A stretch of 64,000 nucleotides of DNA from Pseudoclavibacter sp. 13-3. Its GTDB lineage: Bacteria > Actinomycetota > Actinomycetes > Actinomycetales > Microbacteriaceae. The notes under the pieces were generated by a model. The model made no database searches, was not told where the DNA came from, and was given only the letters and a program-made list of their open reading frames with translations. The stretch lies in NCBI RefSeq assembly GCF_021168475.1, contig NZ_JAJOZT010000001.1, forward strand, positions 715,238 to 779,237, given 5' to 3'. This document shows, piece by piece, positions 1 to 7,066 of the stretch (the first letter of the stretch is position 1; every line of letters begins with the position of its first letter). The position numbers and the translations under genes are program-made.

Positions 1-648
1 GGCGCCCTCCGCCCCGCCCTTGCGGGCGTTTCGCAGATCGCTCTCGTAGTCGAACACGTCGTTGATGCCGTACATGAGCAGGTTGTACGGCACCAGAAAG
101 AGCAGCGTGCCCGCCACCAGCGCCAGGGTCTGCCAGGAGCCCGCGGCCAGCACGGCGCTCTGACGGGCTCCGTCGCCGGCGCCGAGTGAGAATGCCGCGG
201 CGAACGGAAACGCCGTGTTGATCCAGCTCACCGGCCGTGATGAGAGCAGCACCGTGCGCGCGGTGCGCTCATGGTCTCGCATGAGGTGCCACAGTGCTGG
301 CAGCAGTATCAGGGCGGCGAGGGGGTAGGCGAAGTCTTCGATCGGGGCCCGGCCGATCTGCCAACCGGTGCGGCCCTGGTCGGGGTAGGAGAACAGCCCC
401 GCGGCGATCATCACGTTGTCGAAGACCGCGGTGAGCACGGCGAGGCCAGTCAGCGCGATCGCGAATGCTGCGAGCGCACGGGTGATGCGTGGTGCTGCCG
501 ACAACGGCCTGGTGTGCGGAGGAGTGTGACGCGGATGCGGCGCAGCGCGCCGACCGTCTCTGCGGCGCAGCACCCCGCACAGCACCGCCGCTGCAGCTGC
601 AGCGGCCGCGACAGCGAGCATGATGAGGTTGAGCTGAGGATAGGTCAT
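1..648 (-). CDS. CrtYf-CrtEb fusion: lycopene cyclase-type subunit joined to UbiA-type lycopene elongase (3' end outside window)
   Basis: The first part (residues 1 to about 122) matches the CrtYf subunit of heterodimeric C50 carotenoid cyclases, with membrane segments and the motif RAPIEDFAYPL (P102, E104, D105). Without any stop the same frame continues into a UbiA-superfamily prenyltransferase resembling CrtEb: LLSSRPVSWINTAFPF, then the Asp-rich site NDVFDYESD (N196, D197, D200, D204). CrtEb adds C5 units to lycopene; CrtYe/CrtYf then cyclise the C50 product, as in decaprenoxanthin synthesis. In Corynebacterium the two proteins are separate. An internal ATG at residue 123 could also give free CrtEb. 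The start ATG overlaps the crtYe stop by 4 nt (ATGA), indicating coupled translation. The protein runs off the window at codon 216. It is predicted to be membrane-embedded. Confidence 0.88.
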   Translation of the reverse strand, partial: MTYPQLNLIMLAVAAAAAAAAVLCGVLRRRDGRRAAPHPRHTPPHTRPLSAAPRITRALAAFAIALTGLAVLTAVFDNVMIAAGLFSYPDQGRTGWQIGRAPIEDFAYPLAALILLPALWHLMRDHERTARTVLLSSRPVSWINTAFPFAAAFSLGAGDGARQSAVLAAGSWQTLALVAGTLLFLVPYNLLMYGINDVFDYESDLRNARKGGAEGA

Positions 649-965
649 CGCTGCCGCCGTTCGAGCAGCCGCGCAGCTGCACACCACAGCAGCATCGCGC
701 ACCAGCAGAGCAGCAGCAGGAACACCGGCTCTTCAACCGGCAGCTCCGGCGCCAGCAGCACCCCGAGCTGCCACGGCCCGTCGGCCTGCCGAAAGTGACC
801 GTGAGCGATGCCGAGCAGATCCCAGATCAGAAAGAACGCCACGCCGCCGACGAGCACCAGCGCCGCAGTGACGGGTGCACGCCAGACGAAGAGTCGCCAT
901 CGCCGGTCGAGCAGGGCGACGCCGATGAGTGAGAGCAGCAGCAGAATCAGATACGCGGCACTCAT
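645..965 (-). CDS. crtYe: C50 carotenoid cyclase subunit CrtYe (lycopene cyclase domain)
   Basis: Small membrane protein of 106 aa with three hydrophobic segments. It carries the lycopene-cyclase-domain signature LPVEEPVFLLL (E78, E79) and its length fits the family (about 110 to 130 aa). It should act with the CrtYf part of the downstream fusion as a heterodimeric epsilon- or gamma-cyclase. Both ends use 4-nt ATGA overlaps, with crtI upstream and crtYf downstream, so the operon is tightly coupled. The ring type made cannot be told from sequence. Confidence 0.85.
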   Translation of the reverse strand: MSAAYLILLLLSLIGVALLDRRWRLFVWRAPVTAALVLVGGVAFFLIWDLLGIAHGHFRQADGPWQLGVLLAPELPVEEPVFLLLLCWCAMLLWCAAARLLERRQR

Positions 966-2623
966 CGGTCACCCCCTGCCGTGGCCTTCTGAGCGCCTTC
1001 GGTCAGCGGCCCCAGTGAGGTGTCGCCGCGCACACGCTTGAGCATGATCTCGGCGCTGATCAGACACATCGGCAGGCCGACCCCGGGGATGCTCGACGTG
1101 CCTGCGTAGTACAGCCCCGCCACCTTGCGCGAGGCGTTTCGGGCACGCAGCAGCGCGCTCTGGCGCAGGGTGTGGGCGGGCCCCAGTGCGCCTCCCTGCC
1201 AGGCGTTGAGGTCTCTCGCGAAGTCTGCAGGCGCGACGGTGCGACGCACCACGATGCGCTCGGCGAGGTCGGGGATGTCTGCCCACTCAGAGATCTGTGC
1301 GATCGCCCGGTCGACGGCAGCCTCGACGGCCGGGGCTCCTGCGCCGTCGACGCCCCCGGCACCGATCCGGGTGTCTGCCGCGACGGGAATCAGCACGAAC
1401 AGGTTCTCGCAGCCATTCGGTGCGACGGATGCGTCAGTGGCGCTCGGTCGGCACACGTAACAGGATGCGGGGTCGGGAACGCCGCAGCGATCGGCGAAGA
1501 TGGTGTCGAAATTGGTCTTCCAGTCTGCGGTGAAGAACAGCGAATGATGCTCGAGCTGCGGCAGCCCGCCGCGCACCCCGAGCATCGCCAGCACCGCGCC
1601 CGGGCCAGGGTCGCGACGCTGCCACCACGACGACGGGTAGGTGCGCAGATGCGAGGGCAGCAGCTCGGTCTCGGTGTGGTGCAGGTCTGCCGCCGACACC
1701 ACGATCTCGGCGAGGTGTCGGCGGCGACGACCGGTATGGTCCACCGTGGTCACGCCCGTCGCCTGAGCGCGCCGCCGCCGCGCGAAGCCGCTGCCCTGCC
1801 GGCGCCCACCCCGCGTGTCGATCGAGATCGCCCGCCGATCAGTGACGATGGTCACTCCCGCCTCACGGGCGACGCGCTCGATGGCCGCGATCACAGCCGT
1901 GAAGCCTCCCTGCGGATAGCGCACGCCGTCGTCGAGATCGAGATGGCTCATCAGATGGTAGAGCGCCGGGGTGCGCTCGGGCGACGTGCCGAGAAAGACC
2001 GCCGGGTAGCCGAGCACTTGGCGCAGCCTGCGGTCGGCGAACCGCGCCCCCACGAAGGCCTCCAACGTCTGCGTCATCAACCCCGGAAGACGCCGGATGT
2101 CGCGCAGCACCCCCGGCCGCAGCAGCGGTGTCAGTCGCTGCCACGACGTGTAGAGAAAGTGCTTCTTGGCACTGCGGTAGGTCATCGCCGACGAGTCCAG
2201 ATATCTGCCGAGCGCCTCTCCCGCGCCGGTTTCGACGGCTTCGAATGCGGCCTGGTTCGCGCTGCGCGAGCGAGCGATGTCGAGCCGCGAGGCGGCCTGA
2301 CCCGGCGTCGACGGCTCGAAGAACACTCGATATCCGGGATCGAGCGTCGTCAGATCGAGCTGTTCCGCAGCACTTGTGCCGAACAGCGTGAAGAAGTGGT
2401 CGAACACCTCGGGCATCAGGTACCAGCTCGGCCCGGTGTCGAAGCGAAACCCCTCGTGCTGCCAGGTTCCCGCGCGGCCGCCGATCGCATCCTGCCCCTC
2501 GAGCAGCGTGACGGTGTGCCCGTCACGCGCCAGCAGCGCAGCCGACGCCAGACCCGCGATGCCGCCGCCGATCACCACCGCACGCTGCCCGCGGTTCTGC
2601 GCTGATCGCTGATGCCGTCTCAT
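962..2623 (-). CDS. crtI: Phytoene desaturase CrtI
   Basis: Converts phytoene to lycopene in four FAD-dependent desaturations at the membrane. The N-terminus has the dinucleotide-binding motif VVIGGGIAGLASAALLA, followed by EGQDAIGGRAG and the CrtI-type RFDTGPSWYLMPEVF. The C-terminus has the second FAD/CrtI signature GLYYAGTSSIPGVGLPM. The length of 553 aa is slightly above the usual 500 to 520 because of a basic, Arg-rich insert near residues 275 to 290 and a short tail. The start overlaps the crtB stop by ATGA. It lies between crtB and crtYe, the order seen in other C50 carotenoid operons. Confidence 0.95.
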   Translation of the reverse strand: MRRHQRSAQNRGQRAVVIGGGIAGLASAALLARDGHTVTLLEGQDAIGGRAGTWQHEGFRFDTGPSWYLMPEVFDHFFTLFGTSAAEQLDLTTLDPGYRVFFEPSTPGQAASRLDIARSRSANQAAFEAVETGAGEALGRYLDSSAMTYRSAKKHFLYTSWQRLTPLLRPGVLRDIRRLPGLMTQTLEAFVGARFADRRLRQVLGYPAVFLGTSPERTPALYHLMSHLDLDDGVRYPQGGFTAVIAAIERVAREAGVTIVTDRRAISIDTRGGRRQGSGFARRRRAQATGVTTVDHTGRRRRHLAEIVVSAADLHHTETELLPSHLRTYPSSWWQRRDPGPGAVLAMLGVRGGLPQLEHHSLFFTADWKTNFDTIFADRCGVPDPASCYVCRPSATDASVAPNGCENLFVLIPVAADTRIGAGGVDGAGAPAVEAAVDRAIAQISEWADIPDLAERIVVRRTVAPADFARDLNAWQGGALGPAHTLRQSALLRARNASRKVAGLYYAGTSSIPGVGLPMCLISAEIMLKRVRGDTSLGPLTEGAQKATAGGDR

Positions 2624-3651
2624 CCTCTGCTACCGTCGAGCGACTGCGATGCCGTCGAGCGGTCCACCGCGCGGCCGTGCCGTCGGACGATGCGCTCATG
2701 CACCATGCACCGCGCCACGATCTGCGCCTTGCGCCACCCGGGCACCCGCGTGCGTCTGGTCACGAGCCCGTCGACCGACGTCTGCCGAAGGCGCCGGGAG
2801 AGCTCGGAGAACAGCGCATGCGCGCTGGCGACGGCCAGTCTGCTGCTGGCCGGCAGCTCGGCAATCGCCTCACCGGCCTGGGCGAGCTCAGCGTCGATAT
2901 CGTCGAGAATGCCATCTCGGGCGGGCTCGGTCAGCCGGATGCTGCGATGCGGGCGCGCTGCAGCATCCGTCGTCTGCAGGGTCGTCTGCACGGACGTCTG
3001 CGCAGCGGGCGGCTCATCTTCGAGCCGCCCCGGCTGCCGGTCTTCGGCGACCGCGACGACCCCGGGAAAGTAGTTTCGACCACGCACGAGCACATCGTCG
3101 CCCAGGTCACGCAGGAAGTTCACCTTCTGAAAGGCGGAGCCCAGAGCACGTGCCCCCTCGCGCAGCCGTGCGCAGGCGACCGGATCCTCGACGAAGCAGG
3201 CCAGACACATGAGCCCGACGACCTCGGCAGACCCGTGAATGTATGCCGGCATCTCTGCCGCCGTGAACGGTGCAGGGTCGAGGTCACGCCGCATCGATGC
3301 GAAGAACGGCGCGATCAGCTCGGTGTCGATGCCTCGGCGGCGTGCCACGCTGGCGAAGGCGTGCACGATGGGATTCGTGCTGTGGCCGTCACGGATCGCC
3401 TCATAGACTTCGTCTTCGAGCGCGGCGAGGGCTTTGCCCTGCTGTACTGCAGACATCCCGGCCTGCCCTGCTGCGCCGTCGACCGTTTCGTCGGCGATGC
3501 GCACCAGTGCGTAGAGAGCCCTGATCTCGGGCCGCAGCGCAGGTGCGAGCAGTCGACAGGCGAGCCCGAACGACGTCGAGTACCGCTCGACCACGAGTGC
3601 AGCGGCTTGCATGGCCGTGCGCTGGTATCGCTGTGCGTCGGTCTCTCTCAT
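2620..3651 (-). CDS. crtB: Phytoene synthase CrtB
   Basis: Head-to-head condensation of two GGPP to phytoene, a squalene/phytoene synthase family member. The first Asp-rich motif is ADETVD (D54, E55, D58); the second is FLRDLGDDVLVRGRNYFP. Length is 343 aa, with a low-complexity insert between residues of about 205 and 235 (EDRQPGRLEDEPPAAQTS). It is coupled to crtE upstream and crtI downstream by ATGA overlaps. Bacterial CrtB enzymes are membrane-associated. Confidence 0.95.
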   Translation of the reverse strand: MRETDAQRYQRTAMQAAALVVERYSTSFGLACRLLAPALRPEIRALYALVRIADETVDGAAGQAGMSAVQQGKALAALEDEVYEAIRDGHSTNPIVHAFASVARRRGIDTELIAPFFASMRRDLDPAPFTAAEMPAYIHGSAEVVGLMCLACFVEDPVACARLREGARALGSAFQKVNFLRDLGDDVLVRGRNYFPGVVAVAEDRQPGRLEDEPPAAQTSVQTTLQTTDAAARPHRSIRLTEPARDGILDDIDAELAQAGEAIAELPASSRLAVASAHALFSELSRRLRQTSVDGLVTRRTRVPGWRKAQIVARCMVHERIVRRHGRAVDRSTASQSLDGSRG

Positions 3652-4901
3652 CGCTGCCTCCCCGCTATCGCGTCGAGGTGGGTCTGCATGCAGTCTCTGA
3701 GGCGCTCCGACAGCGACTCGTCTTCGAGCAGCCTGCGGCTGACGTGCAGATGGTCCCTGGCTCGCAGCTCGACCGCCTCACGGGCACCGCAGGCGTTCAG
3801 CAGATCGCGCGCTCGGCACGCCCGTGCGTCATCGAGGGTGGGGTCACCGATCATGGTCTCGAGTTCTGCCCACACCGCCGTGTGCTGCGCGACGGCGATG
3901 AGCGCGGTGCGGGTACCGCGCTGCAGGTCGACCTTGGTGCTCTTTCCGGTGATCTCAGCGTTGCCGAAGACGCCGATGAGATCGTCGGTGAGCTGAAAGG
4001 CGATGCCTGCGTGTCGAGCCATATCGCTGAGATGCGCGATCTGCCGCGCATCGGCGCCAGCGAGCATCGCGCCGATGCGCACGGGAGCCACGAAGCTGTA
4101 TCGCGCCGTCTTGAGCTCCAGGGTCTGCTCGATCTGAGACAGCGCATCGTCGGCCAGGGGTGGCACGGATGCGACCTGAGCCGGCGCAGTCGACCTCGAC
4201 GACGGGGCTGTGTTCTGCTGCACCGTGCAGCGTGTCTTCTTGCCGTGTGAAGGGCGGACCTCGGGTGGCAGCAGACGGACCGTCGACTGCGTCTCCTCTG
4301 ACCTGAGCGACTGTGTGACGTCGGCCAGCTCACCGGCGGCAGAGAGGTGAATCGTCTCGTCGAACTCGTCGAGAAGCCGCTCTCGCAGCCGATCTTCGAC
4401 TCGCACACCTGCCAGGCGGCGAATGGCTGAGCTGAGCAGCAGATCCCCTCCGAGCGCTCCTGCCGCGAGCCCCCAGCTGCTGCCCGCTCCTGCCGCATGG
4501 GCGTTTCCCCGTGCCGAGAACTCGGCGATGGCGTTGGGACGGCCGCGTCGCAGCAGATCGCCGTCGATGAGATCGTCGTGCAGCAGAAAGGCTGCGTGCA
4601 GCATCTCAAGGGCTGCTGCTGCCTCGATGCAGGCCTCGCGGTGCTGCTCGGGGCCGCCCAAGGCCGTGAAGGTATCGATGAGCAGCGCCGGCCGAACGCG
4701 TTTGCCTCCCCCGATGCCGGTTCGCAGCGCCTGCCACAGCTGTACGAAACGATCGTCGACCTGTGCCGCCTTCCGCAGACTCTCGTCCATCAGCTGCTGC
4801 AGCCGTTCGTCGACGTCGGCCAAGGTGATCGACGTCACCTGTGCGTGCGTCGTCTCGGCGACATGACGGTTGGCTGTGGTCGATGCCGGGCGCGCGGACA
4901 T
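3648..4901 (-). CDS. crtE: Geranylgeranyl diphosphate synthase (CrtE/IdsA type)
   Basis: All-trans polyprenyl diphosphate synthase supplying GGPP to CrtB. The first Asp-rich motif is LLHDDLIDGDLLRRGRPN (D109, D110, D113); KTARYSF and QLTDDLIGVFG form the second half of the active site. The ATG start has a good ribosome site (AAGGAG, 5-nt spacer). At 417 aa it is longer than usual, with a roughly 45-residue Ser/Pro/Thr-rich insert (about residues 195 to 240) just before the KTARYSF helix. It is the first gene of the crt operon and is divergent from a MarR regulator. Confidence 0.93.
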   Translation of the reverse strand: MSARPASTTANRHVAETTHAQVTSITLADVDERLQQLMDESLRKAAQVDDRFVQLWQALRTGIGGGKRVRPALLIDTFTALGGPEQHREACIEAAAALEMLHAAFLLHDDLIDGDLLRRGRPNAIAEFSARGNAHAAGAGSSWGLAAGALGGDLLLSSAIRRLAGVRVEDRLRERLLDEFDETIHLSAAGELADVTQSLRSEETQSTVRLLPPEVRPSHGKKTRCTVQQNTAPSSRSTAPAQVASVPPLADDALSQIEQTLELKTARYSFVAPVRIGAMLAGADARQIAHLSDMARHAGIAFQLTDDLIGVFGNAEITGKSTKVDLQRGTRTALIAVAQHTAVWAELETMIGDPTLDDARACRARDLLNACGAREAVELRARDHLHVSRRLLEDESLSERLRDCMQTHLDAIAGRQR

Positions 4902-5051: not shown

Positions 5052-5639
5052 ATGTCTGAGAGAACTGGGGAGACCACAGGCGCACCATCCCCACAGCCCA
5101 TCGCGGGAACCGATCGCCGCCCGAACTCGTACTGGTATGACGAGCGCACCGAGAACGGCGCCCGTCAGGTGCTCGAAGCGGTTCGTCGTCTGCGACGCGC
5201 CGACCAGGCAATGCGTCACAGATCCGAGCGGTACATGAGGCTCAATGCGACCGACATGGAAGCGCTGCGACTCATCGTGGCGCGCGAGCGCTGCGGTGTG
5301 GCGACGACTCCTGGCGACGTCACCGCTCATCTCGACGTCACCAGTGCAGCGACGACGAAGCTGCTCGGACGCCTCGAGGCCGCAGGGTTCGTGACGCGAT
5401 CGAGGAACCCCCTCGACGGACGCGGCCAGCTGCTGCAGTCGACTGAAGCCGCGCACCGGGAGGTGCGCCGCTCGCTGGGCGACATGCACGCCCGCATGAT
5501 CGGCTTGGCCGCTGCTCTCGACGACGACCAGCAGCGAGCCGTCATCGGCTTTCTCGACGCCCTCGTCGAGCTCTTCGACGGCGGCAAGCACGTTGATGGC
5601 CCCAACGAGGCAGTCGACCACGACGCGACCGCACGGTAA
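5052..5639 (+). CDS. MarR-family regulator, probable crt operon repressor (CrtR-like)
   Basis: A 195-aa winged-helix protein: a disordered N-terminal 25 residues, a helical dimerisation segment, then the HTH/wing around residues 65 to 130 (TPGDVTAHLDVTSAATTKLL, then GFVTRSRNPLDGRGQ) and a C-terminal helix. The ATG follows GGAGGA with suitable spacing. It is divergent from crtE across 150 bp holding the crt promoter and palindrome, the same arrangement as corynebacterial crtR. Repression relieved by an isoprenoid such as GGPP is inferred from that precedent only. Confidence 0.8.
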   Translation: MSERTGETTGAPSPQPIAGTDRRPNSYWYDERTENGARQVLEAVRRLRRADQAMRHRSERYMRLNATDMEALRLIVARERCGVATTPGDVTAHLDVTSAATTKLLGRLEAAGFVTRSRNPLDGRGQLLQSTEAAHREVRRSLGDMHARMIGLAAALDDDQQRAVIGFLDALVELFDGGKHVDGPNEAVDHDATAR

Positions 5640-5684
5640 CGCACGCCGGTCGCACATGACCGACGTGAATTCGAGAGGAACCCC

Positions 5685-6344
5685 ATGGCACTCCCCGCAC
5701 AGACCACTCAGACCGCACCGACCACGACATCGAGCGCGACGGCGCAGGCGGACGCACCCGTCGAGTTCTTCTTCGACCCGATCTGCCCCTGGGCATGGAT
5801 GACCTCTCGCTGGCTCACCGAGGTGCAGCGGCTGCGAGACCTCGAGGTGACCTGGCGGGTGATGAGCCTCGCGCTGCTGCCGGCGAACGCCACGCCCGCC
5901 CCGGAACATGCCGACGGCATTCGACGGTCGAAGGAGTACTGCCCGCTGGTCGCACTGGTCGGCGAGCGCGCCGGCAGCGCTGCGGTCAAGGCGCTGTATG
6001 ACGAGATGGGCCGGCGCATCCATCTGGATGCCCGCACCGACGTCGAGGCTGTGGCTCGTGAGAGCCTGGCGGCGACCGGACTCGACGCGGCACTCTTCGA
6101 CGAGCGGCACGCGGGGGATGCTCCTCTGGCTGCGAACCAGCGGGATGTCGCCGAGCGTGTGGGCACCGACGTCGGCACACCGGTGCTGACCGTCAACGGG
6201 CACTCGTTCTTCGGGCCGGTGGTGTCGCCTGCTCCGACCGGGGATGCTGCCTTGCGGCTGTACGACGGGCTCTCCCTGACGACCAGCGTCGACGGGTTCT
6301 TCGAGCTGAAGCGCTCGCGCGACGTCGGGCCGATTCTGCGGTGA
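5685..6344 (+). CDS. DsbA-family oxidoreductase, Rv2466c-like (mycothiol-linked)
   Basis: Thioredoxin-fold DsbA-like protein of 219 aa. A roughly 22-residue Ala/Thr-rich leader precedes the core FFFDPICPWAWMTSRWL; the active-site stretch is C34-P-W-A-W, with a single cysteine where classical DsbA has CxxC. The C-terminal cis-Pro region is VGTDVGTPVLTVNG. The family includes Rv2466c of Mycobacterium, a mycothiol-dependent reductase. No signal peptide, so it is probably cytoplasmic. It follows the MarR gene by 45 nt and may be co-transcribed with it. Confidence 0.78.
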   Translation: MALPAQTTQTAPTTTSSATAQADAPVEFFFDPICPWAWMTSRWLTEVQRLRDLEVTWRVMSLALLPANATPAPEHADGIRRSKEYCPLVALVGERAGSAAVKALYDEMGRRIHLDARTDVEAVARESLAATGLDAALFDERHAGDAPLAANQRDVAERVGTDVGTPVLTVNGHSFFGPVVSPAPTGDAALRLYDGLSLTTSVDGFFELKRSRDVGPILR

Positions 6345-6439
6345 TGCCGATTCTGCACAGCTGGCCCGCGGCTCTGGACTTGTGCACAGACGACATGAGG
6401 GGACTGTCAAGGCGGCTGCCGGTGCGGCAGACTCAATGC

Positions 6440-7066
6440 ATGAATCCGATGACAGAGACCCCGGCACCGACGCCTGACACCGCGAGCCACAGCGAGCATC
6501 CACGTGGTGCGCCTCGTGCCAGCACCCTGCACCGCAACGAGCTGACGTCATCAGTCGTGTCGACGCCGATCGGCCCGCTGCTGGTGGCGACGACCGAACG
6601 CGGCGTGGTGCGCGTCGCATTCGCCGCTGAGAGCATCGATTCCGTGCTCACCGACTTGGTCGACCGGCTTCGTCCGGACCGACTGATCGCCGACGAGGGA
6701 ATCGGGAATGAATCGGTGCGTCACCTGGCTGCGGCCGAAGCACAGCTGCGGGAGTATTTCACGGGGCGGCTGCAGACGTTCACCGTGCCGATCGACGATG
6801 CGCTGTCATCGGGGTTCTACCTCGAAGTGCGGCAGGCGCTGCGCCAGGTGCCGTTTGGCACCACCACGACGTACACCGCCCTGGCCGAACGACTTGGGCG
6901 GCCCAAGGCGGTGCGCGCCGTCGGCACGGGCTGCTCGGGCAACCCCGTGCCCGTGATCGTGCCGTGCCACCGCGTGACGAGGGCCGACGGCAGTCTGGGC
7001 GGTTATCGAGGCGGCGCGCCGGCCAAGGCGATTCTGCAGGCCCTCGAAGCCGACGCGCTTCGCTGA
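6440..7066 (+). CDS. ogt: Methylated-DNA--protein-cysteine methyltransferase
   Basis: Suicide repair protein that takes the alkyl group from O6-alkylguanine. The active site is VPVIVPCHRVTRADGSLGG with the acceptor Cys in PCHR, preceded by FGTTTTYTALAERLGRPKAVRAVG of the DNA-binding helix. I place the start at the ATG of MNPMTETPAP (6440); upstream in-frame ATGs would add unrelated sequence overlapping the end of the previous gene. Length is 208 aa, typical of Ogt with a short variable N-terminus. Confidence 0.92.
   Translation: MNPMTETPAPTPDTASHSEHPRGAPRASTLHRNELTSSVVSTPIGPLLVATTERGVVRVAFAAESIDSVLTDLVDRLRPDRLIADEGIGNESVRHLAAAEAQLREYFTGRLQTFTVPIDDALSSGFYLEVRQALRQVPFGTTTTYTALAERLGRPKAVRAVGTGCSGNPVPVIVPCHRVTRADGSLGGYRGGAPAKAILQALEADALR

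Follow-up and report, generated by a model that had tools for sequence, protein, structure and literature searches.

Pseudoclavibacter sp. 13-3 carries a CrtYf-type lycopene cyclase subunit and a CrtEb-type lycopene elongase in one stop-free reading frame. We interpret the gene as encoding a single membrane protein that unites the elongase with the cyclase subunit and that was fused from two overlapping genes, probably apart from the large clade of fused genes to which Paenarthrobacter and Leucobacter belong, and we put the probability of this reading at roughly 0.8. The window referred to throughout is the whole stretch of 64,000 nucleotides that was analysed (G000:C1:715238-779237, within a genome of 2.35 Mb).

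One frame spans the cyclase subunit and the elongase

Open reading frame analysis of the window found the minus-strand frame open from an ATG at 648 to window base 1, with a GTG at 702 as a further-upstream start that would extend it. The window truncates the gene, leaving 651 of its 1299 bases outside; in the genome the gene is complete on the minus strand, with 432 codons and a stop, and it occupies 5588-6886 (minus) of the flanking stretch L002. The features are collected in Table 1.

Curated models matched both parts of this frame. The full 432-residue protein scored 44.9 bits against the lycopene-cyclase domain model TIGR03462 (cut-off 39.4, residues 58-120), 394.6 bits against NF009608 (cut-off 217, residues 128-428), and 90.7 bits against Pfam UbiA (cut-off 34.2). 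NF009608 describes CrtEb-like prenyltransferases, although the model itself carries the name 'prenyltransferase' only. With the 216 residues inside the window, TIGR03462 scored 46.6 bits over the same residues, and NF009608 scored 111.6 bits from residue 128, falling below its cut-off because the window truncates the protein. The Pfam model Lycopene_cyc (PF18916) was below its cut-off for the partial protein and for the protein of a congener, and had no listing for the full protein, so it is the NCBIfam match that identifies the cyclase half.

The first Asp-rich motif of the elongase part, NDVFDYESD, spans residues 196-204 (window 37-63), and the second, D331xxxD335, lies beyond the window. 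Residues N196, D197, D200, D204, D331 and D335 are invariant across the 45 rows of alignment A1, which comprise the window protein, 21 split elongases and 23 fused relatives (all of the 25 listed fused loci except L007 and L036). A structure predicted for the complete protein has fair quality (mean pLDDT 82.2, pTM 0.75), and UbiA homologues are the solved structures that match it best (4tq4, E 9.9e-06). At E ≤0.001 it matches 14 solved chains, either UbiA homologues or related membrane prenyltransferases, the latter also belonging to the UbiA superfamily; these matches have no bearing on the cyclase part. A sequence search for a solved relative returned none at E up to 0.01. The claim of an earlier note on this DNA, that the CrtYf frame runs without a stop into a UbiA-type CrtEb with its Asp-rich site, thus held for the complete protein.

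Table 1. Features of the carotenoid gene cluster, in window coordinates
Feature	Position	Strand	Remarks
crtYf-crtEb fusion, 5' part (216 of 432 aa)	1..648	-	remainder beyond window; whole gene G000:C1:714587-715885
CrtEb-type UbiA prenyltransferase domain start, residues 131-216	1..258	-	first Asp-rich motif in window; NF009608, Pfam UbiA
junction, residues 123-130	259..282	-	internal ATG codon 123 at 280-282; GTG in congener
CrtYf-type lycopene cyclase subunit, residues 1-122	283..648	-	conserved core 57-122 with APIEDFAYP; TIGR03462 match 58-120; core dN/dS 0.23 against congener
crtYe, partner cyclase subunit, separate protein	645..965	-	TIGR03462 42.9 bits, cut-off 39.4; no Pfam match; 4-base overlap with fusion start
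crtI, phytoene desaturase	962..2623	-	TIGR02734 547.3 bits, cut-off 238.1
crtB, phytoene synthase	2620..3651	-	Pfam SQS_PSY 130.7 bits, cut-off 26
crtE, geranylgeranyl diphosphate synthase type	3648..4901	-	Pfam polyprenyl_synt 147.6 bits, cut-off 27
MarR-family regulator, divergent	5052..5639	+	Pfam MarR_2 35.5 bits, cut-off 27

The fusion belongs to a minus-strand operon, crtE, crtB, crtI, crtYe and fusion, in which each start overlaps the preceding stop by 4 bases. CrtYe stays free, as the earlier note had it, being encoded by a separate gene that adjoins the fusion.

Two upstream enzymes showed inserts relative to an Agromyces locus (L013). CrtE residues 201-243 (window 4173-4301) form an insert of about 43 residues; the congener CrtE (L005) aligns without gaps across all 417 residues, and family models matched CrtE in two stretches. 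CrtB has inserts at residues 199-212 and 217-239 (region 199-239, window 2935-3057), and in that region the congener CrtB (L005) has no gap of 6 residues or longer.

Conservation of the fused frame within the genus

The congener Pseudoclavibacter sp. CFCC 11306 (G003; L004 and L005), a separate assembly, encodes the same fusion with 83% identity over the protein; the match in G003 and that in the named locus L005 share their contig coordinates. Its junction is open and of the same form, LPALW followed by two residues, then M or V, then RDHERTARTVLLSSRP. Over the whole gene the Nei-Gojobori dN/dS of the pair was 0.26; the value for the CrtYf core is given in Table 1, and those for the junction (residues 113-140) and the CrtEb part were 0.28 and 0.20. 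The N-terminal residues 1-56 evolve fast, with a dN/dS of 0.60. Since the ratio is low in both halves and across the junction, both halves and the frame running through them have been kept: purifying selection acts on the CrtYf core, the junction and CrtEb.

The other two of the four genomes of the genus (G001 and G002) have no fusion, and their CrtI matches are weak and short, none being full-length. The pathway is therefore patchy in the genus, and has been gained or lost within Pseudoclavibacter.

Fused and split relatives

When genome contigs were scanned, the best 80 of the 583 relatives provided a set of named loci. By a frame test 25 of these 80 (the congener among them) are fused and 55 split; this proportion is no frequency in nature, because the loci were picked by likeness to a fused query. 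Fused genes among these best 80 occur in Pseudoclavibacter, Paenarthrobacter, Arthrobacter, Rarobacter, Leucobacter, Rothia, Nesterenkonia, Kocuria, Klugiella, Curtobacterium, Mycetocola tolaasinivorans and Microbacterium esteraromaticum. Proteins of the kind that the earlier note proposed to search for, joining a lycopene cyclase domain to UbiA, occur in many related bacteria. The note's statement that the two proteins are separate in Corynebacterium is right; as a comparison it was incomplete, given these 25 loci and LbtBC of Dietzia.

The split arrangement itself is usually an overlap. In 54 of the 59 split loci of the whole set, crtEb has a possible in-frame start that gives an overlap of 4-14 bases with the crtYf stop (4 bases in 32 of them, 8 bases in 17); among the others the overlap is a single base in 1 and absent in 4. 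With the pair usually overlapping, a small indel would fuse crtYf and crtEb.

Samples of genomes were covered as well. At least 10 of the 199 genomes in the family sample (162 with any match) have a single stop-free match starting at query residue ≤64, a count made by eye and to be read as a lower bound; in one more genome, G096, the match contains a stop. Two further samples were aimed at the Dietzia-type fusion: the class sample comprised 296 genomes, 54 of which matched at E ≤0.001, and the sample of the family of G286 comprised 196, with 32 matched at E ≤1e-30. Among 30 loci from the latter, one is fused (L095) and 28 are split; L112 was set aside, its 'fused' label having come from the query running into the elongase part. 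An enlarged quick CrtEb tree places L095 with the large fused clade.

A few loci stood out for other reasons. L035 (an Acidobacteria bacterium MAG) and L070 (Sporosarcina beigongshangi) carry an actinobacterial-looking split crtYf-crtEb pair and group with Paeniglutamicibacter at 100/100, which may reflect transfer or contamination. At about 5186-6377 of L078 (Pseudolysinimonas kribbensis) the crtYf frame has no stop until past the whole of crtEb, which uses another frame and has no close start; this is possibly a frameshift.

Number of fusion events

We counted changes between the fused and split states on three trees, counts that are blind to gain versus loss. The careful CrtEb tree (87 rows, 28 fused and 59 split) has 7 changes, at least 5 of them forced by well-supported branches. 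The quick CrtI tree (81 rows) and the quick CrtEb tree enlarged by 29 rows (116 rows) each have 7 changes with 3 forced. L004 was omitted from the trees, its coordinates being identical to those of L005; the CrtI tree also leaves out L008, L039, L086, L088, L089 and L090, which have no usable CrtI match, and Dietzia LbtBC is in none of the trees.

Approximately unbiased (AU) tests, with groups defined once the CrtEb tree was known, rejected a single clade of all fused rows, both with the split rows L065 and L077 left out (p-AU 7.3e-05) and with them admitted (p-AU 0.0006). One shared origin for all fusions is thus rejected, even when one reversal is allowed, and the rows examined support more than one fusion origin. 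L065 and L077, both Microbacterium, are split rows inside the large fused clade and have perhaps gone back from the fused to the split state; whether an AU test rejects uniting the window with that clade depends on them.

Alternative explanations

Two alternative explanations bear on the junction. A one-base error in sequencing or assembly at an ordinary 4-base or 8-base gene overlap would give the same appearance as a fusion. The separate congener assembly, however, has the same open junction, and of its 203 nucleotide differences from the window gene 113 fall at third codon positions. We therefore ruled out a sequencing artefact, whose residual probability is negligible. Translation might instead restart at the codon 123 ATG and yield free CrtEb besides or in place of the fusion. 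A start codon is present there in both species, and the CrtEb start of split relatives lies near it. Against this, inspection by eye found no purine-rich Shine-Dalgarno stretch upstream of codon 123 in either species (starts of overlapping genes may lack one too), and among 29 fused rows a start codon at this exact offset occurs only in the window gene and the congener, which is entered twice; L031, L037, L051 and L085 have one a codon nearer, and L063 a codon further. The internal ATG reported in the earlier note is real, whereas free CrtEb is possible but unsupported, with no evident Shine-Dalgarno and a GTG in the congener, and we consider it quite improbable.

A third alternative is that this fusion and the large fused clade descend from one shared event, in which case Cryobacterium, Agromyces and related genera would be split by ancestry or reversal. 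The two have the same architecture and the same order of parts, and the Pseudoclavibacter branch is long (0.52 in the careful CrtEb tree). Uniting the window with the large fused clade was rejected when L065 and L077 were shut out (p-AU 4.1e-05 for CrtEb, 0.001 for CrtI) and was not rejected when they were let in (p-AU 0.0501 and 0.11). We lowered our claim of a separate origin because the first AU tests had excluded these two rows, which are members of the large fused clade. On the other side, the careful CrtEb tree places the window and congener in a set of 32 rows, the other 30 all split, with support 99/95, and the enlarged quick tree places them with 29 split rows with support 98; none of 200 bootstrap trees has a branch that sets these two, the large fused clade and the two split rows within it apart from all other rows; and linkers differ in length and sequence. 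A shared origin is unlikely, and a fusion in Pseudoclavibacter separate from that of the Paenarthrobacter and Leucobacter clade is favoured without being established.

Comparison with known systems

The fusion is not new in kind, having already been described as LbtBC of Dietzia sp. CQ4, for which Tao et al. 2007 is reportedly the original paper. We compared LbtBC with the window protein by description: both join the cyclase subunit and the elongase in frame, and both have a separate partner subunit (LbtA in Dietzia) encoded with a 4-base overlap.

According to Li et al. (2019; PMC6393565), the Dietzia elongase gene lbtC forms an in-frame fusion with the cyclase subunit gene lbtB, lbtA and lbtBC overlap by 4 bases, and LbtABC produces the C50 beta-cyclic carotenoid C.p.450. 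Elongase-cyclase fusion is said to occur in certain instances, residues 1-134 of LbtBC being the cyclase and 135-432 the elongase (excerpt of PMC6669644). On its own in a C. glutamicum strain that makes lycopene, LbtBC yielded bisanhydrobacterioruberin, a linear C50 carotenoid (excerpt of PMC5678898), and therefore the elongase works while fused. The fused gene lbtBC also appears in a passage of PMC8424464, and in a passage of Klassen (2010; PMC2889829), spelled LitBC, it was trimmed for a tree; the corresponding genes of Rathayibacter toxicus are given as split in a passage of PMC5552033. Within the passages covered, each mention of a fused elongase-cyclase gene concerns Dietzia or its lbtBC.

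The decaprenoxanthin genes of C. glutamicum resemble those of the window in domains, in the order crtYe-crtYf-crtEb and in the divergent MarR regulator, CrtR (excerpt of PMC5401885); unlike in the window, CrtYf and CrtEb are separate proteins. The fusions of Paenarthrobacter, Arthrobacter, Leucobacter, Kocuria and others have the same architecture in one frame. Many of these relatives have longer, dissimilar linkers, and the group sits on a different branch of the CrtEb tree, although uniting the window with its largest clade is not rejected. A literature search, conducted on passages and with most subscription journals outside its reach, found no report of repeated independent fusion, and it found no paper on C50 carotenoids of Pseudoclavibacter.

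Proposed function and significance

From the known families and from LbtBC, the most likely function is elongation by the UbiA part and ring closure by CrtYf with CrtYe. The CrtEb-type part at the C-terminus would extend lycopene by one C5 unit at either end; the CrtYf part at the N-terminus would form with the separate CrtYe a heterodimeric cyclase responsible for end-ring closure in the C50 product. The two overlapping genes would have become one frame through a small indel or the loss of a stop, and the fusion would set elongase and CrtYf subunit at 1:1. We infer these enzyme activities, the 1:1 ratio in the cell, the origin by indel and the separate origin here, whereas the fused frame, the conservation of both parts, the operon and more than one fusion origin among the rows examined are shown.

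The tethering and fixed ratio that the earlier note proposed follow from the gene structure, which is silent on any benefit; a benefit through channelling may be supposed. In a broader and rather doubtful version, independent fusions of CrtYf and CrtEb would have recurred in Actinomycetota as tethering was favoured, for example because C45 and C50 intermediates are handed directly to the cyclase within the membrane, and the Pseudoclavibacter protein would count among the most compact examples, its linker being very short.

Natural fused and split pairs, apparently from more than one fusion event, would allow the effect of tethering on the proportions of acyclic and cyclised C50 carotenoids to be tested, and the fusion could serve as a compact part for C50 carotenoid production in laboratory hosts.
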